DNA from: a virus
DNA length: 20,476 bases
IMG/VR virus record: IMGVR_UViG_3300025849_000281
Coordinates: 1-20,476 of that record
Direction: 5' to 3' (one strand)
In this document: piece by piece, positions 3,229 to 20,192 of the stretch
How positions within the stretch are numbered: position 1 is the stretch's first letter
Layout of the letters: every line of letters begins with the position of its first letter
Program-made: the position numbers and the translations under genes
The notes under the pieces: generated by a model
The model's database searches: none
What the model was told of the DNA's origin: nothing
What the model saw: only the letters and a program-made list of their open reading frames with translations

Positions 3229-3564
3229 ATGCGACCATTGTGCAAATGCGGACAACGTCCTGCAGCTATAAATTATAAAAAAGGCAAAAAAGTCTATTAT
3301 AGAAAGCTATGCGAGCGTTGCTTACGTAACGGTGTTAATCATGGTGTACCATTATGGAAACAACGAGGTTACGAGAAAAAGAATATTTGCGAAAAGTGCG
3401 GTTATACTAGTAAACACTTAGAACAATTTAATGTGTTCCATATTGACGGAAATTTAAAAAATTGTAGCCCAACTAATCTAAAAACTATATGTGCAAACTG
3501 CCAAAGAATTATGCAGAAGCAAGGAGTTCGTTGGAAACAAGGCGATCTTGTACCTGACTTTTAA
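3229..3564 (+). CDS. Small HNH-type zinc-finger endonuclease-like protein
   Basis: A 111-residue basic protein with two Cys-pair clusters: C5/C7 with C28/C31, and C54/C57 with C88/C91. Between the second pairs is an HNH-like core FHIDGN (H71, D73, N75) followed by N83 in TNLKT. This is the layout of small phage HNH proteins. The last His of a canonical HNH motif, expected right after the CxxC, is Q92 here, so cleavage activity is not assured. It lies alone on the plus strand between the sheath gene and the dNMP kinase, and its last 56 bases overlap the 3' end of the kinase gene on the other strand. It could be a homing-type free-standing nuclease, or a DNA-binding protein that has lost nuclease activity. 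A strong AGGTGAGG site supports the start. Confidence 0.6.
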   Translation: MRPLCKCGQRPAAINYKKGKKVYYRKLCERCLRNGVNHGVPLWKQRGYEKKNICEKCGYTSKHLEQFNVFHIDGNLKNCSPTNLKTICANCQRIMQKQGVRWKQGDLVPDF

Positions 3565-5291: not shown

Positions 5292-6433
5292 TGTATATGC
5301 CAAGATTAAGTTTATACAAGCCACAACGCGGTAATGATTATAGTTTTATAGACAAGCAAGTCTATGAAATGTTCACGGTTGGTGGCACGGATATTAATAT
5401 CCACAAGTTCCTAGGTGCTGAAAATCCTAGTGATGCAGATGCAACTGCTGATCAGCCACAATACGATGCTGTTAAAGAAACTAATATACAAGATTTATTA
5501 TTTCTTGAAAATAGAGATCGTAAGTACGATCCCGATGTTTATACAATGCGTGGCATTTATAATGTGCAAGATATTGATTTTAACCTTAGCCAATTTGGTT
5601 TATTTTTAAGTAATGATACACTATTTTTAACAATACATATTAATAGTAGTGTAAAAACTCTTGGCAGAAAAGTAATGGCAGGTGATGTAGTTGAATTACC
5701 ACATTTAAAAGACGAATATGCACTAAATGATTTATCATTTGCTCTTAAACGCTTTTATGTTGTAGAAGATGTAAACAGAGCTGCAGAAGGTTTTTCACAA
5801 ACTTGGTATCCGCATTTATATAGATTAAAATTAAAACAAATAGTAGATAGCCAAGAATTTAAAGAAATACTCGACTTACCTGCAGAAGAAGGTGCTACAG
5901 GTGGAGACACACTACGTAGTTTGCTTAGTACATATGATAAAGAAATGCAAATTAATAATGCTGTAGTTGCCCAAGCAGAAGCTGATGCACCTAAGGCAGG
6001 ATATGACACTAGCCATTACTATAGTTTGCAACTTGACAAAAATGGCAATACAGAATTAGTAGACACAGACGGGGACAATATACCCGATACTATGCAAAGT
6101 CCTGTTAAGTCAGGATACAACGGATATTTATTAGGTGACGGAATACCAACTAACGGCGAAGCATTTGGACACGGTATATCATTTCCATCTAATACTACAA
6201 CTGGTGATTTCTTCTTGCGTACAGACTTTTCGCCAAATAGACTATTTAGATTTGACGGTACTCGTTGGGTTAAACAAGAAGACAATGTACGCATGACACT
6301 AACTGGTACAAACACACGCACACATCAAAAAGGTACTTTTGTAAACAATACTACAACAAATACTATTGCAGGTGAAACAGTTGAAGAAAGACAGAGTTTG
6401 TCAAAAGCACTTAGACCAAAGGCAGATGAATAA
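5291..6433 (+). CDS. gp14: Neck-type virion structural protein, T4 gp14-like
   Basis: A 380-residue protein. The core (LLFLENRDRKYDPDVYTMRGIYNVQDIDFNLSQFGLFLSNDTLFLTIHINS, then GDVVELPHLKDEY, then ALKRFYVVEDVNRAAEGFSQTWYPHLYRLKLKQI) follows the gp14 order of a KFG-type strand, a GD-V-ELP element and a final YRLK strand. The C-terminal third (FDGTRWVKQEDN) is an extra linker/beta region not in T4 gp14 (256 aa). MPRLSLYKP starts at the second ATG (5297), and either start is possible because the late promoter overlaps the first. No Shine-Dalgarno site is seen. The stop overlaps the next ATG (TAATG). Divergent from the gp13-like gene and two genes before gp15, this keeps a 13-14-15 grouping. It is certainly a virion protein, and the gp14 name is likely but not proven. 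Confidence 0.6.
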   Translation: MYMPRLSLYKPQRGNDYSFIDKQVYEMFTVGGTDINIHKFLGAENPSDADATADQPQYDAVKETNIQDLLFLENRDRKYDPDVYTMRGIYNVQDIDFNLSQFGLFLSNDTLFLTIHINSSVKTLGRKVMAGDVVELPHLKDEYALNDLSFALKRFYVVEDVNRAAEGFSQTWYPHLYRLKLKQIVDSQEFKEILDLPAEEGATGGDTLRSLLSTYDKEMQINNAVVAQAEADAPKAGYDTSHYYSLQLDKNGNTELVDTDGDNIPDTMQSPVKSGYNGYLLGDGIPTNGEAFGHGISFPSNTTTGDFFLRTDFSPNRLFRFDGTRWVKQEDNVRMTLTGTNTRTHQKGTFVNNTTTNTIAGETVEERQSLSKALRPKADE

Positions 6434-7512
6434 TGAGATATAAAGATTTAAAGATAGTAGAAAATTTTAAACCCGGTGATGAACTATGTGCAGGTATTGT
6501 CAGGTTAAAAAAGAAGCAAAAAGATATGGATGCTGACTCATTTAAAATGTTTTACGGAGATAGCTGGAAAAGATTAGAACACAATATAAAAAGATATTTA
6601 CAACAATTTCCAGATCCGGCAGTAGCCGCTAAAATTAAGAAATGTTGGCTAGCCGCTGGACAAGCAGATTTTGGATTCGGAGACGGTGATGGCGTAATTG
6701 GTGGAAATAAAAAAGGTACAGATAATAACGGCGTAATTGGTGGAAATAAAAAAGGTACAGATAATAACGGCGTAATTGGTGGAAATAAAAAAGGTACAGA
6801 TAATAACGGCGTAATTGGTGGAAATAAAAAAGGTACAGATAATAACGGCGGTACAGATAATAACGGCGGTACAGATGTTAAAGGTGGACAAACAATTAAT
6901 GATAAGTTTGGTACTGAAATGGCCACATTTGGAAATTTCCTAGACAACAATGACTTGGAAGGTGCTTTAGCATTCCTAGACGGAAATCCAGGATTTGCAA
7001 AAGCAATTGGACCAAAGTTTAGAACAGATATTCAATCTGCTTTAGATGCTGCAGAAGCAAAAGAACAAAATAGAATTGCACAAGAAAAAGCTGACAAGGA
7101 AGCTGAAGAAGCCAAACGTATTGCAGACGAAAAGGCAGCAAAAGAAGCTAAAGAAAAAGCCGATGCAGCTGCAGAAGCTAAACGTATTGCAGATGCAGAA
7201 GAGAAAAAACGACTTGATGCTATCGAAGCTGAAAAGAACGCAGCAGAAGCTAAGAGATTAAAAGACGCAGCTGATGCAAAAGCTGAACAAGAACGTCAGC
7301 AAGCAGAACTTGATAAGTTAGAAAAAGAAGCTGAAGAAGCTCGTATTGCAGCTGACAAACTAGAAAAAGAAAGAATAGAAGCTGAAAAAGAAGCCAAGCG
7401 TATAGCTGCTGAAAAAGAAGCAGAAGATTTAAAAAAACCTAAATCCAACTCTCCACAAACAGATGATACACCAGGGGATGTTGAAGAATTTGACTGGGAG
7501 GATTTACAATGA
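6433..7512 (+). CDS. Repeat and coiled-coil protein of unknown function (359 aa)
   Basis: I do not recognise a family. There are four parts. Residues 1-86 form a compact basic domain beginning MRYKDLKIVE. Residues 87-144 are four identical copies of GVIGGNKKGTDNN plus one short GGTDNN, encoded by perfect DNA repeats. Residues ~150-204 form a small domain with NFLDNNDLEGALAFLDGNPGF. Residues ~205-335 are a very long Ala/Lys/Glu helix (AKRIADEKAAKEAKEKADAA type), TolA-like only in composition, which would form a rigid rod or coiled coil. The C-terminus DVEEFDWEDLQ is acidic. It is translationally coupled to both neighbours (TAATG before, ATGA after), inside the gp14-gp15 operon. A virion or assembly scaffold role is plausible by position. 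Confidence 0.75.
   Translation: MRYKDLKIVENFKPGDELCAGIVRLKKKQKDMDADSFKMFYGDSWKRLEHNIKRYLQQFPDPAVAAKIKKCWLAAGQADFGFGDGDGVIGGNKKGTDNNGVIGGNKKGTDNNGVIGGNKKGTDNNGVIGGNKKGTDNNGGTDNNGGTDVKGGQTINDKFGTEMATFGNFLDNNDLEGALAFLDGNPGFAKAIGPKFRTDIQSALDAAEAKEQNRIAQEKADKEAEEAKRIADEKAAKEAKEKADAAAEAKRIADAEEKKRLDAIEAEKNAAEAKRLKDAADAKAEQERQQAELDKLEKEAEEARIAADKLEKERIEAEKEAKRIAAEKEAEDLKKPKSNSPQTDDTPGDVEEFDWEDLQ
6691..6864 (+). repeat. Perfect in-frame tandem repeat: 4 x 39 bp plus an 18-bp partial unit
   Basis: The units start at 6691, 6730, 6769 and 6808. Each begins GGCGTAATTGG and ends GGTACAGATAATAAC, and all four are identical base for base. At 6847-6864 an 18-base short unit keeps only GGC plus the last 15 bases, and a diverged start of another follows at 6865. 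Each unit adds 13 residues, so copy-number change keeps the frame. The lack of any silent difference points to recent expansion by slippage or recombination. Confidence 0.97.
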
Positions 7513-10583: not shown

Positions 10584-10852
10584 TGTTTCCAAAGTTAAAA
10601 GAATCTACGAAGTTTAAAAAAGATCTAGAACGTTTTACTTTGGCATTAAATAATTGTCCTGAAGAATACAAAGGACGAATGCAAGAGTTATACAATGATT
10701 GGACAACTAATGCAGATCAGATAGATATTGGACATGATTTAAACTTAGGTGCAACTATTGATCCTAAAAGTTTGAAAGATACAAGATTTACTTTGAATCG
10801 TACTAGAACACAACTTTTAGATTTGATGAAAAAATTATCTTTAAATTACTGA
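10583..10852 (+). CDS. Small protein of unknown function (89 aa)
   Basis: I do not recognise it. It is a helical, charged soluble protein (FPKLKESTKFKKDLERFTLALNNCPEEYKGRMQELYNDW, ending TRTQLLDLMKKLSLNY). Its ATG overlaps the cupin-like stop (TAATG), so it is the last gene of the plus-strand operon. Its 3' end overlaps the convergent fibre gene by 12 bases, with no room for a terminator. The gene is supported by coupling and plausible codon use, while function is unknown. Confidence 0.65.
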   Translation: MFPKLKESTKFKKDLERFTLALNNCPEEYKGRMQELYNDWTTNADQIDIGHDLNLGATIDPKSLKDTRFTLNRTRTQLLDLMKKLSLNY

Positions 10853-12415
10853 TATACGTTTAACGGTTATAGCACCAACCATAGATGCATGCAGTGTACA
10901 TTGATATCTATAGTTACCCGAAATAGTTTCTGGCACTTCCCAATATAATGTCCCGGCATCTTTTCCGTTAGCACTTGCTCCTGTACTTACATTACCAATA
11001 ACATCAACGTGTACAAGGCCTGTTGAGTATGCGGTTCCAGTACCATCTTGTATTTCAAATGGATGTCCGCCAATGCCGTCTAGATCAAACGCAATAGTCA
11101 TACCACCAATAGCATATAACGTAGGATTGTTTCCACTATATCCATGGCTGTCAACACTATATGCAGTATTACCTACATTATTCATTCTAATCATTGCCAT
11201 AGCAGGCATATAACTTTTATCAATAGTTCTACCAGTTCTGCCAACTTCTTCTAAGTTGTCATAACGTGTTACGCCCAATGTACCTGTAAAGTTAATTGTA
11301 ATAGTATCGTTTGATGCACTTGTTGATATGTTTGTTCCACCTGCAATAGTCATAGTATCTGTTATACTATTTGCAGTAAGTGAACCTGCATCACCGTTAA
11401 ATTGATACCATAAGTTTTGATCTGGATCTCCGCCGCCACCGCTTACTGTGTCTGGACCCCATGAATCGCCGTCCCATACAAGTGCTTGGCCTGTTGCCGG
11501 AGCAGTTGCATCTACGTTTGCTAAACTTGCTAAAGTAGAACTAGTATCTAATGCATCGGTTATTCCATAACCAGCAATAGTAGTCGGCTTTGCACCTAAG
11601 TCTGCAAAGTTTACAACAGCATCAGTTATTCCATACCCTGCTATAGTAGTTGGTTTTGTACCTAAATCGGCAAAGTCTACTACTGCATCGGTTATTCCAT
11701 ATCCTGCTATAGTAGTTGGTCTACTTGTTAAACTACTAAACACACCGTCAAATAATAAAGTTGTAGTGTCTGTTAAGTCACTTACGTCTGCTGGAATAGT
11801 TGGTGTGTTTTGTAAGTTATTATAGTTTAAGAAATAGATACTATCTTGGCCATCTAATGTGTCTGCATCTGTTCCTGCACCACCTGTTGTAGCGTCAGTA
11901 CCAGGTGACCATTTAGCGCCGTCCCATTTTAATACATTACCTGCTACAGGAGTTGTATTAGTTGTATCAACATCAGTTAAATCGTCAATACTTAGACTAG
12001 GAGTAGCCCCTGTTATAGTTAATGTTTTACCTGATATTCCTGTGCTTACATTTCCTGCACCTGCAAAAGTAATTGCATCAGTTGTGCTGTCAGCTGTAAC
12101 ATTGCCAGCATCACTATTAATTGTTACAAATACATTTTGATCTGGATCACCTAGTGTTCCAGTCATATTTAAAGTAACAATATCTCCTGTTACTGCACTT
12201 GACATATTTGTACCACCAGCAATAGTAAGTGTGTCTGTTGGACTATTTGCTGTAGTTGATCCTGTATCGCCTGCTACTGTTTTAAATTGATCAACATTGG
12301 CTGCTGCTACAGCTCCGCTGTCGACTAGCCATGCTGTACCATTCCATTTCCAAGTGGTAGTGCCGTCTGTAAATGTATCGTCTAGTACCGGTGATGCCGG
12401 AAAATTTAATGCCAT
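10841..12415 (-). CDS. Tail fibre-like virion protein with a C-terminal cupredoxin-like domain
   Basis: A 524-residue protein. It begins with a short fibre-type segment (FPASPVLDDTFTDGTTTWKWNGTAWLVDSG). Three diverged beta repeats built on DTLTIAGGTN...TLG follow, then a LDGQDSIYFLNYNNLQNTPTIP element, then three 22-residue PTTIAGYGITDAV..FADLG.K repeats typical of phage fibres. The last ~100 residues are different. GHPFEIQDG (H451) and YRYQCTLHASMVG (C506, H509, M512) match the His/Cys/His/Met ligand set of type 1 copper proteins, with the C-x2-H-x2-M spacing of amicyanin. It has a late-type AATAAATA box and an AGAGG site. The likely place is the virion surface, with host contact inferred. 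The copper-site idea is a hypothesis. Confidence 0.8.
   Translation of the reverse strand: MALNFPASPVLDDTFTDGTTTWKWNGTAWLVDSGAVAAANVDQFKTVAGDTGSTTANSPTDTLTIAGGTNMSSAVTGDIVTLNMTGTLGDPDQNVFVTINSDAGNVTADSTTDAITFAGAGNVSTGISGKTLTITGATPSLSIDDLTDVDTTNTTPVAGNVLKWDGAKWSPGTDATTGGAGTDADTLDGQDSIYFLNYNNLQNTPTIPADVSDLTDTTTLLFDGVFSSLTSRPTTIAGYGITDAVVDFADLGTKPTTIAGYGITDAVVNFADLGAKPTTIAGYGITDALDTSSTLASLANVDATAPATGQALVWDGDSWGPDTVSGGGGDPDQNLWYQFNGDAGSLTANSITDTMTIAGGTNISTSASNDTITINFTGTLGVTRYDNLEEVGRTGRTIDKSYMPAMAMIRMNNVGNTAYSVDSHGYSGNNPTLYAIGGMTIAFDLDGIGGHPFEIQDGTGTAYSTGLVHVDVIGNVSTGASANGKDAGTLYWEVPETISGNYRYQCTLHASMVGAITVKRISVI
11553..11716 (-). repeat. 66-bp fibre repeats encoding TIAGYGITDA
   Basis: Equivalent points fall at 11553, 11619 and 11685 (66-base spacing). 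Each unit codes for PTTIAGYGITDAV plus FADLG.K, with the third copy truncated on its far side. Unlike the 39-bp repeat at 6691, the copies have many silent differences, so they are older. Confidence 0.85.
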
Positions 12416-12443: not shown

Positions 12444-14957
12444 TTACGATTTTGAAATTGTAACTCCGCCTGATATATTATACGGTTGTCTACCGTATTT
12501 ACTATATAAAAATTTATTAGGTGCCCCTAATAACGATGTTCCAAATTCTGTATAATCGGAATCTGAGCCTGTTGAAAATAATGTTGGCTTTGATTCACTT
12601 AAAATTTTATCTTTTACACCCTTAGGAGATAGTGTTGGCTGTACTGTAAGATACTGTGCCATTACACCTGCTACTTGCGGTGCTGCCATACTAGTTCCAT
12701 TAATTAGTGCTATTTTATAACTTGTATTTGGAGTATAATCACCTGTGGTGTATATTGATGTTGTACTACATGTACTTATTATATTTGTTCCTGGCGCATA
12801 ACAAGTTAATCTTGGACCTCTACTAGAACTATTACTAGTTTTATCTAAAAAGGTTGCTCCGCTTTGTTGTGTTGTTGAATCTGAATTGCCTACTATAATA
12901 GCTTCGTCACTATGTGGACTAGAACCTCTATGATAATAGTAAGTGGTTGCTCCGTATACTACATTATTATCGTAGTCGACACCTCCTACAACATCTCCTT
13001 TATAATAATCGTTGCCTGCAGCAATTACTACATGTATTCCTGCATCGATCATATCTTCGATTTCAGCATCAACTGAAGGAACTCTAGCAGGAATAATTCT
13101 ATTTTCACCATTTACTGGAACTACTATTCCAGTAGCTTGCCAAAGAGCAAGATTAGCTACATAATCAACTCCCCAAGTCCAAGCAGATCCTCTATAATTT
13201 CCACTTGTAGGACTGCCACCTATAGTAGCACTGTATCCCCAACTCATGTTGACTATGGTTGGTCTTCCATTTGTTTTTGCTGCATGCCATAATCTGATAG
13301 CATCAAATGCATCTGAAATAGGAATGCCTGAATTAGGGTCTGATGGTGCTTCTAGTCCTGCTAACTTTTGAGAATATATATGTGCCTTTTTAGCCCAGCC
13401 GTATGTTTTGCCAGCTGCAATACCTGCACAGTGTGTACCGTGACCATCAAAATCTCTATAATGATTTACGTTTTGTGTACCTGACAATCCGCTCTCTGTA
13501 TACCAATCAATTTGTTGTACACGAGATGTTCCTCCACTTGAAGAAACAACATAGCCTGATGCACCTGCTAAACTCGGATTGTCTTGTGCTGGTGTATTCC
13601 CGTCTTGGAATATACTTCTAATTGTTGTTAACGAAGGCTTACTAATAACAGGAGCAATATATGAATTGTGTAATGCGTAACCTAACGGATTATTAGATTG
13701 TATACCTGCCGGAGTACGCATACTATCGCTCCATTCAGGACTAAGACTTCCACCTTCCCATAAACTTGTGTATTCAAACATACAAAAATTTAGTAGATAC
13801 AAGTATTCCTTAGCTGCTACTTCAAATGCATCTCCACTAGTTTTAAAAGCACCCGGACTTGGCTCGTAGCCTGATGGATCCCACATGCCTGCGTCATACG
13901 CTTCTACCATTGCATTATACAAAGGACCAGTTGCCCAGTCAGCACTTATAAAAGGATACATTTTTAATGTTTGTGCATCTAACCCATGCATATGTAATGT
14001 ATGGAATACGTGTTCGATAACTTCCTGTGCATCTATATCACCATCACCATAACCATCACCAGTTGAATTTAAATACCACACCATATCGTTTTGAACAGTA
14101 TTATCAAACAAGTCTGTTAGATTCCAAAATATAATGCCAGCATCTGTTAAAAAATTTGTGCTATAGTCTGAGCCAGCACCTCTTGCTACTCTTTGTATTG
14201 TTGGTACCCCTGCATGATATGTTCCTGTGTCACCACTTAGATTTTGTATTAATGCTCGTTGTGCTGATCCGTTTATTCCGGCGCCATTTGGATCTGTAAA
14301 AAGTTCAAACATACGTCCGACTTTTTCTAGCCACGCATCTGGTACTGCTGTTTGGCCACCTACTGTGCCAGCACCCATTATTCTTACACCATTTACAGTA
14401 ACTTCACGTTTGAAGAAATCACTACCGTCTCCGACAACATTAATAATTGCACCGTTATTATATTCTGGATCAACTGCTGCTCCTCCGTCTATAAATTCTG
14501 GATGATCAACTTGTAGTCCACTGTCTTGAATTACAATGTCAACTCCGGTACCATCTAATGCATATGGATATTGGTTAGATGCTGTTGCACCATCACTGTA
14601 TACATTAGTAGCTTCTATACAACGTCTTAATCCCCAATTTACTTTATCTGTTTCTAGTACAGTAGGTTTAGTAAAATCAGAAGTTTGTGTTGCTTTAATT
14701 CCAATTTGAATATCGTTTCTTTGATCAGGTGGTATTTCTACACTTAATACTCTTTCGTCGCTTAATAATTCTTGTGCTTCTTCATCAGTAAGCATCCAAT
14801 GAGTCATTCTTTTACTGCCGGGTCTAGCATTTGCAACTTCAATAGCTCTACTAGGTATAGCAGAACTATCGCCGTATTCAGTAGCCATTTCGTTGTCAAA
14901 CTCGGCTAGATCTACGCCTCTATTTACAACAACAATATATTCTCTTTCGTTACTCAT
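12444..14957 (-). CDS. Subtilisin-like serine protease (peptidase S8) with a large insertion
   Basis: An 837-residue protein. Residues 1-120 look like an inhibitor-type propeptide (REYIVVVNRGVDLAEFDNEM, MTHWMLTDEEAQELLSDERVLSVEIPP). The subtilase catalytic set is intact: D145 (IVIQDSGLQVDHPEF), H506 (GHGTHCAGIAAG), oxyanion N649 (IAAGND) and S756 (NGTSMAAPQVAG). D145 and H506 are separated by 361 residues, against about 32 in subtilisin. The insertion carries a 12-residue EF-hand-like loop at 301-312 (D-G-Y-G-D-G-D-I-D-A-Q-E), immediately followed by the His-rich EHVFHTLHMHG (315-325). No signal peptide is present, so it is probably a virion or cytoplasmic protein. It sits between the propeller and fibre genes. 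Likely roles, all inferred, are cleavage of host surface proteins on contact or of tail proteins during assembly. Confidence 0.88.
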   Translation of the reverse strand: MSNEREYIVVVNRGVDLAEFDNEMATEYGDSSAIPSRAIEVANARPGSKRMTHWMLTDEEAQELLSDERVLSVEIPPDQRNDIQIGIKATQTSDFTKPTVLETDKVNWGLRRCIEATNVYSDGATASNQYPYALDGTGVDIVIQDSGLQVDHPEFIDGGAAVDPEYNNGAIINVVGDGSDFFKREVTVNGVRIMGAGTVGGQTAVPDAWLEKVGRMFELFTDPNGAGINGSAQRALIQNLSGDTGTYHAGVPTIQRVARGAGSDYSTNFLTDAGIIFWNLTDLFDNTVQNDMVWYLNSTGDGYGDGDIDAQEVIEHVFHTLHMHGLDAQTLKMYPFISADWATGPLYNAMVEAYDAGMWDPSGYEPSPGAFKTSGDAFEVAAKEYLYLLNFCMFEYTSLWEGGSLSPEWSDSMRTPAGIQSNNPLGYALHNSYIAPVISKPSLTTIRSIFQDGNTPAQDNPSLAGASGYVVSSSGGTSRVQQIDWYTESGLSGTQNVNHYRDFDGHGTHCAGIAAGKTYGWAKKAHIYSQKLAGLEAPSDPNSGIPISDAFDAIRLWHAAKTNGRPTIVNMSWGYSATIGGSPTSGNYRGSAWTWGVDYVANLALWQATGIVVPVNGENRIIPARVPSVDAEIEDMIDAGIHVVIAAGNDYYKGDVVGGVDYDNNVVYGATTYYYHRGSSPHSDEAIIVGNSDSTTQQSGATFLDKTSNSSSRGPRLTCYAPGTNIISTCSTTSIYTTGDYTPNTSYKIALINGTSMAAPQVAGVMAQYLTVQPTLSPKGVKDKILSESKPTLFSTGSDSDYTEFGTSLLGAPNKFLYSKYGRQPYNISGGVTISKS

Positions 14958-14965
14958 TATAATAC

Positions 14966-16267
14966 TTATACCTTATACAAATATGCAACACCACTGTTGT
15001 CAGCACCTACGTCATCTTCAGTTTTTACACCGACACACAATCTAGTACTATTCATACTCATTACATCACCAAATTTATCATTATCTACATTGCCAAATGC
15101 ATTTGGATTGTCCAGAGTTTTTATAAGTGATCCGTCTGACATACTAAAAATGTAAACAACTCCGCTAGACTGACCAGCTGCTGTATCTTCGTCTTGTGCG
15201 GTTACTGCACAGTAACTATTATTAATAGCAACTTCTGAACCAAAGTAATCGTTATTTACAGTACTATATGCATTTGGATTTGATAGTCTTCTTAATAGTG
15301 TCCAAGATCCTCCAGATAACTCATATATAAATGCATTACCACTATTTGTTCCGTCAATATCTTCTCCTGGTGCTCCTACTATAATATAGTTTCCACTTAT
15401 GTCAACACTATATCCAAACTGGTCAAAGTTATCAGTTCCAATAGCTGGTCCGTTTGGATTAGGATTTAAAATTGTTTGTACTGCTCCTGTAGCGTTTGTT
15501 ATAATATGTATTGCACCACTATCACCGCCGCCTGTTGCACCAGCTGTATTTTCTCTCCAACTTCCGACGACTGTATATGTATCATTCATTGCAAGTGTTT
15601 GTACATTGCCGCCTAATTGATCTCCAGGATATTCATCTTCTGCATCAATGTTTGGGTTTTTGATAGAATGTAACAAACTACCGTCACTAGTATCAAATAT
15701 ATAAATCCAACCAGTATCGTCACCTATGCCAACTTCATCTTCACGTGGAGCTGCAACTGCCGCATAGTTTTCAGATATAGCTACACTACTACCGAATGCA
15801 TCACCGTTTGGATTAACTTCAGTTGTTGTAGGATTTGGATTTGCAAGTGTAAAAAGCAAACTGCCATCTGTAATGTCAAATATATAAGCTGCACCTGTAT
15901 CTGTATCTGCACCAATATCTTCTCTTTCTGCACCTGCAATAATATAGCTGTCAGAACATGCAACTGCTGTACCAAATTGGTCGCCTTCTCCTAAACCCGG
16001 AGGTGCAGTAGTACTAGGATTATCAATAGTATATTGTATTAAGCCTGCACTATTAAACACATAAACTTTACCGTTTTGTGAAGCTGCCGCATCACTTTCA
16101 ATACTACCAATAACAACGTAACTATTATTAACAGCAACACTGTTTGCAAAATAGTCATCCTGTTTTACATCGTACGCATTAGGGTTATCAATTTGTTTGA
16201 TAAACTTAAATTCCGATTGCGGACTACTAAAAAATATGTTACTAGTTAAAGATCCTAAACGAGGCAT
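14966..16267 (-). CDS. Seven-bladed FG-GAP-type beta-propeller, likely tail adhesin
   Basis: 433 residues made almost wholly of seven repeats on the plan D.FG.SVAI..NY..VGA..ED......G..YIFD..DGSL. They begin near residues 38, 96, 156, 216, 280, 340 and 397. Most blades are joined by an NPN(A/P/I) motif. Acidic ED loops in each blade are the kind that bind calcium in integrin-type propellers. The short N-terminal strand FKFIKQIDNPNAY probably closes the ring against the last blade. There is no signal peptide, no membrane segment and no extra domain. It lies 6 bases after the fibre/cupredoxin gene and 8 bases before the protease start, on the same strand, with only a weak ribosome site. Binding to a host surface polymer is inferred from the fold and the neighbours. 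Confidence 0.85.
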   Translation of the reverse strand: MPRLGSLTSNIFFSSPQSEFKFIKQIDNPNAYDVKQDDYFANSVAVNNSYVVIGSIESDAAASQNGKVYVFNSAGLIQYTIDNPSTTAPPGLGEGDQFGTAVACSDSYIIAGAEREDIGADTDTGAAYIFDITDGSLLFTLANPNPTTTEVNPNGDAFGSSVAISENYAAVAAPREDEVGIGDDTGWIYIFDTSDGSLLHSIKNPNIDAEDEYPGDQLGGNVQTLAMNDTYTVVGSWRENTAGATGGGDSGAIHIITNATGAVQTILNPNPNGPAIGTDNFDQFGYSVDISGNYIIVGAPGEDIDGTNSGNAFIYELSGGSWTLLRRLSNPNAYSTVNNDYFGSEVAINNSYCAVTAQDEDTAAGQSSGVVYIFSMSDGSLIKTLDNPNAFGNVDNDKFGDVMSMNSTRLCVGVKTEDDVGADNSGVAYLYKV

Positions 16268-16273
16268 TGGCTG

Positions 16274-17740
16274 TTATCCATAGTTTGTATAACCACCTAA
16301 CACAGTCCATGTTGTACCTACTCTTAATAAAGAGAACGTAATTACGTCTATTGAATTTGCGTTTCCTGTAGGTGCAAGAGTTTCAACCCAATTTATTGTT
16401 TGGGCTACTCCGTCAATTTGTACTGCATTTGGCACATACGGTGTTGCACCTTGACGTAATACAAGAACAACGTTTAACGCTCTATCAGAAGTCGTTGGTA
16501 CATTAGTTATATTTGCTGTAAAGTTTGCTGCAATAGAAGTATGATCAAATATTGCATTTGTAGCAAAGTCGTGTGCAACAACTCCAGTTGCTCCAGTCAA
16601 CGACGATAATATTTCAGATTGTTTTGATATGTTTTCTAATAATATTCCGTCCGGTGCATCTAATGTAATAGTTGAAGCACTATCAAATACTGCTCCGCCT
16701 GCTCCGCTATTAGTAAAACTAGGTGTTGTAAGACTTGCAAAAGTTACGCTATCTGATGTATTCAGACTTTGGTCATATGATCCACCACCGCCTCCACCGC
16801 CGCCTGTGCTATTAATAGTTAGTGTATTACTGGCTTCGTCGATAGTCATTGTAATATTTGTGCCAGCTGTAAAGTTTAGTGTATCTGATTTTGTAGATGC
16901 ATCTATACTTTGGGCGCCGCCTGTAATTTGTACACTACTAAATGTACTAAAATCTGGTACAGGAGCAGTTGGTTGTACCCATTGACTACTGTCAGTATCA
17001 GTAATGTAAACAAATAATGATCCAGTCGCACTATCGAACCAAATGCTTCCTTCACTAGGTGACCCTGGCGGCGTATCACTTATATCAACACTTGCTCCTC
17101 CACCACTGCCTGAGCCTGTACCAGGATCTGCTACTGCAATACTATTACCTTGATTTGTATGAAAATGACACCAATAATATAGTGTGTCTGGTGCACTACT
17201 TTTAACAGTAAATAAAACTTTTTTTGTTGTTGCACGTTGAAAATTATCTGTGTAGTATCTCATTGATACAGGATCGTCGTCTAGTAAATAAACTATACCT
17301 GGATTGTAATGTGCGCCACCTTCAATTAGATCGCCATTAGGCGTAGTTGCAAACATTAACGGATGCCATAAATTAGCATATGAATTATTTGTTTCGTCAG
17401 ATTGATCAAATAGATACGTATATCCTCTAACTAAATTTAACTGAGGTTTTTCTACTCCGTCAATATAAAACACACCAGTTGCTTGACCGTTTGCTGTGTC
17501 AACGCCTACTGTGACTGTTCTTTCAAGTAATGCTACACCAGCGTCTGCAAGTTGTTGCGATAGGTTCCCTGATGTTAGTAGAGTATATCCGCCGGCTAAC
17601 TTGCCGCTGTAAACTCTAAGTGTATTTGCTTGTTTATCGTAAAAAACTTCACCACTTGCACCAACGTTTCTGTCAAGAAAATCGTCTGGTCTTGGTATGA
17701 TCCGAATTCTATCTACTACTGGTGCTGAATTTGATGACAT
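16274..17740 (-). CDS. Fibre-like virion protein with an internal cupredoxin-like domain
   Basis: 488 residues. Residues 1-70 (IIPRPDDFLDRNVGASGEVFYDKQANTLRVYSG) are a common marine phage virion start. Residues ~75-205 look cupredoxin-like: NLVRGYTYLFDQSDETN, WHPLMFATTPNG (H126) and TLYYWCHFHTNQGNS (C191, H194, Q197). A Gly/Ser linker and an EGSIWFDSATGSLFVYITD..QWV strand repeat follow. Then come beta repeats with a run of eight glycines, and a C-terminal domain (~365-488; SLTGATGVVAHDFATNAIFDH ... VLVLRQGATPYVPNAVQIDG) found at the ends of many phage fibres. A late-type GATAAATAC box and a GAGGAAA site precede the start. It is the first gene of the adhesion set. Confidence 0.78.
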   Translation of the reverse strand: MSSNSAPVVDRIRIIPRPDDFLDRNVGASGEVFYDKQANTLRVYSGKLAGGYTLLTSGNLSQQLADAGVALLERTVTVGVDTANGQATGVFYIDGVEKPQLNLVRGYTYLFDQSDETNNSYANLWHPLMFATTPNGDLIEGGAHYNPGIVYLLDDDPVSMRYYTDNFQRATTKKVLFTVKSSAPDTLYYWCHFHTNQGNSIAVADPGTGSGSGGGASVDISDTPPGSPSEGSIWFDSATGSLFVYITDTDSSQWVQPTAPVPDFSTFSSVQITGGAQSIDASTKSDTLNFTAGTNITMTIDEASNTLTINSTGGGGGGGGSYDQSLNTSDSVTFASLTTPSFTNSGAGGAVFDSASTITLDAPDGILLENISKQSEILSSLTGATGVVAHDFATNAIFDHTSIAANFTANITNVPTTSDRALNVVLVLRQGATPYVPNAVQIDGVAQTINWVETLAPTGNANSIDVITFSLLRVGTTWTVLGGYTNYG

Positions 17741-18265: not shown

Positions 18266-18273
18266 GTATTTAC
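18266..18273 (-). promoter_or_regulatory. Possible late-type box at the J-domain gene
   Basis: The minus strand reads GTAAATACTAT, close to the late consensus, but the box lies only 3 bases from the ATG and overlaps the stop of the upstream gene. If used, it would give a nearly leaderless message, as at 5284. It could also be chance in AT-rich sequence. Confidence 0.3.
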
Positions 18274-19034
18274 TTCCATTTATATGTTTTCAATTTAGAT
18301 GCATTTGATATCCATTTATTGTCAATTGTTGCGGCACGTAATCTTAAGTTATCTATATCGTTTTTATTGTACTCTCTTACTATAGCATTTACTTCGTGTT
18401 TTTTTACAAGTATATATTGGCATAGCGGAGTACCTGCAGGTATTATAATTTCATCGTTTAACGAATGCCAAAATACTTGAACATTTAAAAAATTAGGACC
18501 AAAATCTGGATCTAAAAATCCTATACTTGCAGTAAAATTTTTATTATCAGGATATGGTATAGGCATACTCATTAAGTAATATCCTTTAGGAATGTATGCT
18601 ACCCAAGGTGATTGTATTTTAATAACTGTACTTAGATGTTTTGAATCTGGATTAAACTTAGCATAAAGTTCTTCTGGATGCTGATTAACATAAGGCCAAA
18701 TCCAAGTATGATCGGCATCGACTCTACTTTGATCAACTGGAGTTGTCCAACTAAAACTGTTACCGTCGCCGTTTGTTTTAATAGCAATATCTTGCCAAGA
18801 CTTCTGTATCCATCCAGTTTTTTGAATTTGATTAATTCCCGGACATCTTGTGATATGACTAAATCTTTGAGTTATGTTATCTGATCGTTGCCTAATGTCT
18901 TTATAGTCTTGTACTGCCTTTTTAACCCACTCAAATTTAATATTTGTAGCTGGTTCTATAGGCATAAGTTGTGTTATTTCCGGAAGCAAACTAACAAATT
19001 CCAACTTAGGTGTTTTTTTAAAAAAATTAAACAT
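18270..19034 (-). CDS. Unknown protein with a dUTPase-like C-terminal signature (paralogue 1)
   Basis: 254 residues, clearly related to the protein encoded at 19446-20192. Both share a start of MF-FKK-PK-EF-S, a CPGI...K.G(W/F)I motif, W.D..IKT.G, (S/T)PW...PKG, and a C-terminal LDP...LNV...W...AG.....I. Here that last part reads ASIGFLDPDFGPNFLNVQVFW, then IIIPAGTPLCQYILV. This resembles the dUTPase/dCTP deaminase pattern GLIDSDY..QL...V.N......I.PG.R.AQ. The N-terminal half has no match I recognise. A functional dUTPase is not claimed. It starts 8 bases inside the previous gene. Confidence 0.6.
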   Translation of the reverse strand: MFNFFKKTPKLEFVSLLPEITQLMPIEPATNIKFEWVKKAVQDYKDIRQRSDNITQRFSHITRCPGINQIQKTGWIQKSWQDIAIKTNGDGNSFSWTTPVDQSRVDADHTWIWPYVNQHPEELYAKFNPDSKHLSTVIKIQSPWVAYIPKGYYLMSMPIPYPDNKNFTASIGFLDPDFGPNFLNVQVFWHSLNDEIIIPAGTPLCQYILVKKHEVNAIVREYNKNDIDNLRLRAATIDNKWISNASKLKTYKWK

Positions 19035-19446
19035 ACATTGTTGCTTTATACTTTTTATCTAGTTCGTCTAAATGTTTATCTCTGCTTAGTGTCCAAGATA
19101 AAATATTGTCTACATGAATTACAAATGGATTTCTATCAGGCATAGAAATTAACCTTACATACTGATCTTCTAAAACTTCTTCGCCGTTAACTACTTCAGC
19201 TGTTAAAGGGGTATCTTCCCATTCGTAATTTTCGAAGCCAATTCTCGTTGCCACTTTACGAACCATTTCATTTTCTTGGTTAGTGTATTCTATTATAACT
19301 TCGCGTTCTCCTGCTACAGTGTTTAACCAATGTATATGCTTATGCCTATCTTTTTGAACTTTTCGAGCAGTGTAATCGTCTTTTGCTTCTCGAATAGTCT
19401 GAGAATAAGTTACAAAATCATCAGTGTTAGTTTCTTGTAATGGCAT
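19027..19446 (-). CDS. Unknown protein (139 aa) between the two paralogues
   Basis: I do not recognise it. It is an acidic protein with a helical N-terminus (TYSQTIREAKDDYTARKVQKDRHKH) and a beta-rich middle (REVIIEYTNQENEMVRKVATRIGFENYEW, QYVRLISMPDRNPFVIHVDNILSWTL), ending in a short helix. A strong AGGAGGAAC ribosome site precedes the ATG. It overlaps the upstream paralogue by one base (TAATG) and the downstream one by 8 bases, so the three are made together and may act together. Confidence 0.65.
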   Translation of the reverse strand: MPLQETNTDDFVTYSQTIREAKDDYTARKVQKDRHKHIHWLNTVAGEREVIIEYTNQENEMVRKVATRIGFENYEWEDTPLTAEVVNGEEVLEDQYVRLISMPDRNPFVIHVDNILSWTLSRDKHLDELDKKYKATMYV

Positions 19447-20192
19447 TAGTTCCTCCTAAAATGTTTGTTGTACATATTTTTTAATAATGCTTTGTTTACT
19501 TTAAATCCGTGAATTTGATAATATGTTCGTTTTTCAAACCATTCTAAATCATGTTTAGTTGCATCTCTAACTTCGTAATCATACGATTCTTCAGTTAACG
19601 GAATTAAGTGTGCAAGGGCGTGTCCTGCTTTAAGTTCAGTTTCTCCGTGTTTTTTATTCCAGTATCCTTGAACATTAAGCTCTGTACTTATGCTTGGGTC
19701 TAGTATACCGGTCGCTGCATCAAATTCGTAGGTATCTGAATACGCTACTGCTGTCATTAAAAATTTCATACCTTTTGGGGCAATAACATTCCAAGGAGTG
19801 TTAAATTTTACTATAGGTGCAATACTATACGGACGCTTTGGTAAAAATTTTGTAATATCATATGGATGAGTGCCTACAGGATCTCCGTCTCTCATAGTCG
19901 CTAAAACTTCGCTTGGATGCACATAACCAAACGCTTCGTTTTCGCCTTGTGTTTTTATAACTGTATCGTGCCACAAAGGAATTATAAATCCGTGTTTATA
20001 TAAATCAAAAATTCCTGGACACTGTTGTAAATGACTAGGAACCTTATAATTTTTTCGTCTAATGTAATCGTCTTTACATGCTTTCATCCATCTTGGTGAA
20101 AATTTACTAGCAGGAATAATAGGATATATGTCTGCTAATCCAGGCACTTTACTAAAAAATTCTATTTTTGGTTTTTTCTTTTTAAAAAACAT
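19446..20192 (-). CDS. Unknown protein with a dUTPase-like C-terminal signature (paralogue 2)
   Basis: 248 residues, paralogous to the protein at 18270-19034 along its whole length: FFKKKKPKIEFFSKVPGL, PASKFSPRWMKACKDDY, QCPGIFDLYKHGFIIPLWHD, VIKTQGENEAFGYVHP and TPWNVIAPKG. Then ATGILDPSISTELNVQGYW and ETELKAGHALAHLIPL, where the dUTPase-like Q position is H. It begins with a very basic MFFKKKKPK. It is directly downstream of a 2OG-Fe(II) oxygenase (stop 3 bases before the ATG), with a weak ribosome site. Function is unknown. The pairing with an oxygenase suggests a role in modifying a host or phage molecule, which is only an inference. Confidence 0.6.
   Translation of the reverse strand: MFFKKKKPKIEFFSKVPGLADIYPIIPASKFSPRWMKACKDDYIRRKNYKVPSHLQQCPGIFDLYKHGFIIPLWHDTVIKTQGENEAFGYVHPSEVLATMRDGDPVGTHPYDITKFLPKRPYSIAPIVKFNTPWNVIAPKGMKFLMTAVAYSDTYEFDAATGILDPSISTELNVQGYWNKKHGETELKAGHALAHLIPLTEESYDYEVRDATKHDLEWFEKRTYYQIHGFKVNKALLKNMYNKHFRRN

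Follow-up and report, generated by a model that had tools for sequence, protein, structure and literature searches.

A nomadic domain in the Asp-His loop of a phage subtilase and in other tail and baseplate proteins

Subtilases hold their catalytic Asp and His close together in sequence, and the phage gene studied here raises the question of what a stretch of more than 300 residues is doing between them. The gene comes from an IMG/VR virus record of 20.5 kb that contains T4-like tail genes (the whole stretch is referred to as the window), in which Pfam and PHROG matches identified a tail sheath stabiliser, a head-tail adaptor and a gp9-like connector. No match to isolated phages was found for the whole window at the DNA level; at the protein level, marine cyanophage proteins resemble those of the window.

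The subtilase and its place in the baseplate operon

The window protein is assigned to the S8 family by its match to PF00082 (E 8.2e-25), by its fold and by the order of Asp, His and Ser, which together with the oxyanion Asn lie in conserved motifs. D145, H506, N649 and S756 occupy the positions given in the preliminary description and none of them varies in an alignment of 45 subtilase rows. The full-length protein was modelled with AlphaFold2 (pLDDT 82, pTM 0.67, a moderate value that leaves the relative placement of the domains uncertain); the model superposes on aqualysin I (4dzt) over 269 of 276 residues with a Z score of 36.7 at 2.3 A, and since the aligned range, residues 102-821, spans the insertion, the S8 fold closes around it in the model. 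The model thus supports a subtilase fold that is intact around the insertion, with the triad kept. Among the structures compared, only those of pro-enzymes (3afg, 3whi, 3wiu, 1r6v) have alignments that start at residues 1-4, a hint of an N-terminal prodomain, and no signal peptide was seen. The enzyme is probably an ordinary serine protease that works alongside the inserted domain. In five related subtilases that carry the domain at the C-terminus (L003, L009, L041, L059 and L146), HGTL or HGTM replaces HGTH and GTSF replaces GTSM, with the triad kept.

The subtilase gene belongs to a tightly spaced run of four genes encoding a tail-fibre-like protein, an FG-GAP repeat protein, the subtilase and a gp9-like connector (Table 1). 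The FG-GAP repeat protein had no PHROG match; integrin-like beta-propellers are a known home of such repeats. The tail setting assumed in the preliminary description is borne out both by this tail/baseplate operon and by related phages. In S-CREM1 and S-H38 an insert-free subtilase lies between genes for a 'baseplate wedge subunit and tail pin' and a gp8-like protein, a slot resembling the one in which Syn33 and S-RIM2 have their gp10-like gene with the domain, and in S-SCSM1 a related S8 protein is annotated as baseplate wedge subunit and as virion protein. The virion proteome of S-SCSM1 has been measured (PMC9602691), and the virion-protein annotation is taken to mean detection by mass spectrometry. 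Our literature search found no virion proteomics of domain-bearing phages.

Several other features of the window were noted, the first two of them by eye. The gp9-like protein (10841-12415) and the tail-fibre-like protein (16274-17740), both on the minus strand, contain short cupredoxin-like Cys-x-x-His strings (YRYQCTLHASM and YYWCHFHTNQG) that recall copper proteins, and a small plus-strand ORF (3229-3564) overlapping a gene on the opposite strand has CxxC pairs and an HNH-like string and looks like a free-standing HNH endonuclease. In the plus-strand protein at 6433-7512, GVIGGNKKGTDNN is repeated four times in tandem, and a long stretch rich in Lys, Glu and Ala comes after the repeats. Two similar proteins are encoded close together on the minus strand (18270-19034 and 19446-20192), the first of which matches phrog_7084, a family whose function is not known.

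Table 1. Positions of the subtilase, its inserted domain and the neighbouring operon genes in the window.
Feature	Position	Strand	Basis
S8 subtilase gene with nomadic domain, 837 aa	12444..14957	-	ORF and translation, PF00082, S8 fold
N-terminal prodomain-like part, residues 1-90	14688..14957	-	strand/helix order in model; pro-enzyme alignments
Catalytic Asp145	14523..14525	-	sequence and alignment
Catalytic His506	13440..13442	-	sequence and alignment
Oxyanion-hole Asn649	13011..13013	-	sequence and alignment
Catalytic Ser756	12690..12692	-	sequence and alignment
Inserted DNA (5 nt in close relative L173)	13521..14488	-	blastn against L173
Nomadic domain, residues 163-470 (DPEYNNG ... SGYVV)	13548..14471	-	same edges in dozens of carriers; AlphaFold2
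EF-hand-like loop DGYGDGDIDAQE, residues 301-312, not a conserved EF-hand	14022..14057	-	conservation; low pLDDT
Invariant helix motif ExxEHxxHTxH (E312, E315, H316, H319, H322)	13992..14024	-	copies 44-100% identical, bacterial included
Invariant K383-E384-Y385 on later helix	13803..13811	-	conservation and AlphaFold2 model
gp9-like baseplate wedge/tail fibre connector, next operon gene	10841..12415	-	phrog_677, E 7e-69
FG-GAP repeat protein, directly upstream of subtilase in operon	14966..16267	-	PF14312, E 6e-46, six repeats
Tail fibre/baseplate-like protein, first of four-gene run	16274..17740	-	phrog_708 and phrog_9729

Extent, predicted fold and conserved residues of the inserted domain

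The catalytic Asp and His of the window protein are 361 residues apart, in agreement with the approximate value of 360 given earlier and far above the 45-48 residues of most uninserted relatives. The insertion itself is real, although the 361 residues first ascribed to it overstated its length by about 40: the inserted DNA amounts to about 968 nt, roughly residues 157-479, and the domain within it to about 308 residues (roughly 310). In four close relatives (L172-L175) the protease core is 91% identical to that of the window, the insert is absent and Asp and His are 40 residues apart. A blastn comparison with one of them, L173, gave 89% DNA identity on both sides of the insertion across all 8 kb of that contig, with 968 nt in the window facing 5 nt in L173. 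Since the loop of L173 is slightly shorter than in typical uninserted relatives (40 versus 45 residues) and the next relatives of the window have the domain in the same loop, this difference likely reflects a loss in the L173 line, although the direction is not proven. An equivalent pair was found among phage isolates, where the gp10-like baseplate wedge protein of S-RIM12_RW_07_1112 contains the domain and that of S-RIM12_W1_24_0910 does not (953 versus 2 nt; identity of the flanks, 96.6% and 99.4%). Close relatives thus differ in having or lacking the domain as a discrete unit.

The check for a separate domain that had been proposed earlier gave a clear result, as the insert alone is predicted to fold with confidence (AlphaFold2 pLDDT 85, pTM 0.87). 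Searches with the single sequence and with profiles against Pfam, PHROG and PDB sequences returned nothing credible for the domain, Foldseek with the domain model gave no match at E <= 0.001, and a fold search in predicted viral structures likewise retrieved nothing. Upon structural re-ranking, gluzincin metallopeptidases took every top rank, with PPEP-2 (6fpc) the best at Z 6.8 and other neighbours from M34, M9 and M30, but scores in this range (Z 5.0-6.8) can reflect merely a common arrangement, and the resemblance of the predicted domain to the gluzincin fold is suggestive and modest.

The residues that are conserved in the domain bear on this resemblance and on an EF-hand reading put forward in the preliminary description. 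Both strings on which that reading was built, DGYGDGDIDAQE (residues 301-312) and the following EHVFHTLHMHG (residues 315-325), are present in the translation, and the His/Glu cluster after the loop is invariant across the domain family. The resemblance to an EF-hand is weak, and the EF-hand itself did not hold up. A 12-residue EF loop has oxygen ligands at positions 1, 3, 5 and 12, while the window loop has Tyr at position 3, position 1 is Asp in only 36 of 53 copies, and the loop is absent from L234, L240 and L249, although a divergent copy of the domain sits in the very same Asp-His loop of these proteins. Moreover, a strand and coil precede the loop in the models, which predict the exit helix and lack the entering one, so that there is no helix-loop-helix. 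Conservation and predicted structure thus both speak against an EF-hand, and it was rejected. In contrast, H248, E312, E315, H316, H319, T320, H322, K383, E384 and Y385 are among the residues that are invariant in copies down to 44% identity, and the His cluster may still bind a metal.

In the model, one helix holds E315 and H319 at a spacing of four residues and a later helix holds E384, an arrangement like that of gluzincin ligands, making E384 a candidate third metal ligand. However, the HExxH motif of gluzincins was not found; the domain has E-H-x-x-H, invariant in all copies. Since the His and Glu of HExxH are swapped, membership in the gluzincins is not claimed, and a site of this kind would be unusual and could be inactive; a literature search on EHxxH metalloproteases found none. 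We only tentatively suggest an undescribed family of EHxxH...E metalloenzymes with a use at the bacterial surface, which cyanophages may have acquired as a nomadic virion enzyme that hops between tail and baseplate proteins and can lodge even in active-site loops of a different enzyme. A similarly doubtful alternative is a non-catalytic module binding the host surface or a polysaccharide, maybe with a degenerate peptidase fold, that spread for host range. The lack of a canonical HExxH and the tail and baseplate location of the carriers would agree with a binding module, as would the finding that, of all phage proteins, those of the tail and baseplate and the receptor-binding ones show the strongest recent domain mosaicism (PMC10684548). 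On the other hand, ligand-type residues (E312, E315, H316, H319, H322, E384 and H248) are invariant down to 44% identity and dN/dS is low, unlike what is seen in a fast-changing receptor-binding surface.

Bacterial relatives of the domain were rare in the genome searches (1 of 396, 4 of 177 and 1 of 387 genomes) and form the C-terminus of Actinomycetota lipoprotein-like proteins and of secreted proteins of Opitutales. In three Actinomycetota MAGs (L085, L086 and L087) the lipoprotein-like gene lies beside one for a secreted protein of about 1300 aa with an HExxH string (HEYEHSI), which is possibly its functional partner. The baseplate locus, the S-SCSM1 annotation and the secreted bacterial relatives, considered together, point to, rather than prove, an action of the domain outside the cell.

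Carriers of the domain and its movement between them

A search of viral contigs yielded 146 related places, 80 of which were kept at 74-91% identity, and clustering by flanks placed the phage carriers into 13 clusters. Within subtilases the domain has four seats: the Asp-His loop as in the window, another place in the Asp-His region in a second group, a position between the Asn and the Ser, and the C-terminus. Outside the subtilases it is carried by the gp10-like baseplate wedge protein of Syn33, S-RIM2 and S-RIM12 (copies 82-84% identical to that of the window), by the gp7-like wedge initiator of RB11-B and by other baseplate wedge and tail fibre proteins, and two copies are nearly bare (324 and 334 aa). 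The flanks in the gp10-like carrier map to positions 120-704 and 702-1300 of the phrog_708 profile, indicating a clean insertion with nothing lost. Most members of the phrog_708 family (e.g. S-SM1, Syn19 and P-SSM4) align over 82% in at least two pieces, as expected if they lack the domain.

This distribution bears directly on the earlier idea that the window subtilase is gated by the insertion through the sensing of calcium or another metal. The location in the Asp-His loop and the presence of an EF-like string and a His cluster gave that idea its appeal, but many carriers of the domain have no subtilase and those that do have it at four places, so that the domain is not a dedicated regulator of the window enzyme. 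Together with the missing entering helix and the absence of the EF-like loop from the three proteins with a divergent copy in the same loop, this makes gating of the protease highly improbable.

L062, with the domain in the Asp-His loop, and L060, with a C-terminal domain, have 97.5% DNA identity over 903 nt, compared with 65-83% in other aligned stretches, and in three further pairs (L047/L034, L040/L064 and RB11-B/L053) the DNA match is confined to the domain within the stretches compared. The DNA match between carriers often ends at the edges of the domain (about 0.9 kb). Among 153 subtilase pairs the median identity was 48% for the core and 79% for the domain, and the two were uncorrelated (Spearman 0.08, p 0.35). 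At least 30 changes of carrier among the phage rows were counted on the domain tree, a quick tree with several long branches. The domain is thus common, at high DNA identity, to otherwise unrelated virion proteins, as in mobile (mosaic) virion domains of phages, and a median dN/dS of 0.17 among its copies shows purifying selection. Whole-protein matches gave one place per phage record in 113 of 113 cases. Of the 12 large contigs with the domain, 11 have a single copy; the twelfth, L004 (record G929), has a second, partial match at the contig end.

In-frame insertion into many proteins and polymorphism for presence and absence would also be seen with inteins and with other elements that home or splice themselves out. 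However, some copies of the domain form the C-terminal end of their carrier or make up nearly the whole protein, leaving no C-extein of the kind that an intein requires; the edges (DPEYNNG...SGYVVD) lack the Cys/Ser start and the His-Asn plus Cys/Ser/Thr end; and there are neither a common flanking target site nor terminal repeats spanning the cassette, the longest direct repeat being located at one edge only. An intein was therefore rejected, and elements of this kind are very improbable. Target-site microhomology was also rejected: HPEF of the subtilase resembles the cassette start DPEY, but the flanks have no common target site, and PE[YFW] occurs within 40 aa in only 8 of 42 carriers, mostly subtilases using their own motif. 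In L072 a second DPEYNNGPLI, the usual cassette start, follows directly after the domain end (from about aa 911), as if it were the remnant of an earlier copy.

It is conceivable, though in our view rather less than probable, that most carrier switches represent gene conversion, in which copies long resident at fixed sites are exchanged, instead of new insertions. Some sites do hold near and divergent copies; L005 and L234 have similar subtilase flanks and the domain in the same loop, with domains 86% and 45% identical to that of the window, a pattern that suggests replacement in place. In contrast, the clear presence/absence pairs and the many unrelated proteins among the carriers speak against this reading. 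Exchange and new insertion are not mutually exclusive, and some of the changes on the tree may be exchanges. The best explanation of these patterns, in part observed and in part deduced, is that the domain is gained, lost and exchanged between carriers and is usually present once per genome.

In summary, the window gene would encode a tail- or baseplate-associated S8 (proteinase K-like) pro-subtilase of a T4-like cyanophage with a nomadic domain of about 308 residues in its Asp-His loop. The domain appears to be an independent module that is hung on whichever virion protein tolerates the insertion, and on the tail exterior it would act on the surface of the cell as the phage adsorbs or enters. 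E315, H319 and E384 (with H316, E312 and H322) would form a putative metal site, and the module may be a hydrolase or have evolved from a hydrolase into a binding domain. We favour this explanation as a whole, a virion-borne, surface-acting module that is possibly a metalloenzyme and has a flexible attachment point, with moderate confidence; the conservation could equally mean a binding surface.

Comparison with known systems

The occurrence of one conserved, normally single-copy module on many unrelated virion proteins means that display on the cyanophage tail can be decoupled from the carrier, and the S-RIM12 isolates with and without the domain provide a natural pair for testing its role in the infection of Synechococcus. 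Should the metal site prove real, the domain would add a metallopeptidase-like family that is unusual in its swapped motif. Smug et al. (2023, PMC10684548; available passages) described recent domain mosaicism of tail proteins, receptor-binding proteins and endolysins in phages, and the present case is similar in the recent exchange of a domain between virion proteins. It differs in that one large uncharacterised domain, unmentioned in those passages, has many unrelated carriers and also enters loops of an intact enzyme. Thus, while domain mosaicism of phage tails is known, the nomadic domain, its seats and its possible metal site appear to be undescribed in the literature searched.

With S8A subtilases such as proteinase K and aqualysin I (PF00082) the window enzyme has in common the order of the triad, the profile match, the fold and a prodomain-like part; in contrast to them it is phage-encoded in a baseplate operon, has no signal peptide that could be seen and contains a foreign domain of about 310 residues in the Asp-His loop. 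The gluzincins (PPEP-2, the peptidase domains of M9 collagenases and M30 lugdulysin) are the best structural neighbours of the domain and likewise have a Glu/His-rich helix followed by a helix with a Glu, but the domain has EHxxH, lacks HExxH and has no detectable sequence similarity to them. A counterpart with a different carrier is the gp10-like wedge protein of Syn33, S-RIM2 and S-RIM12 (phrog_708), which, unlike the window protein, is no protease and yet has a domain 82-84% identical to that in the Asp-His loop of the window subtilase.
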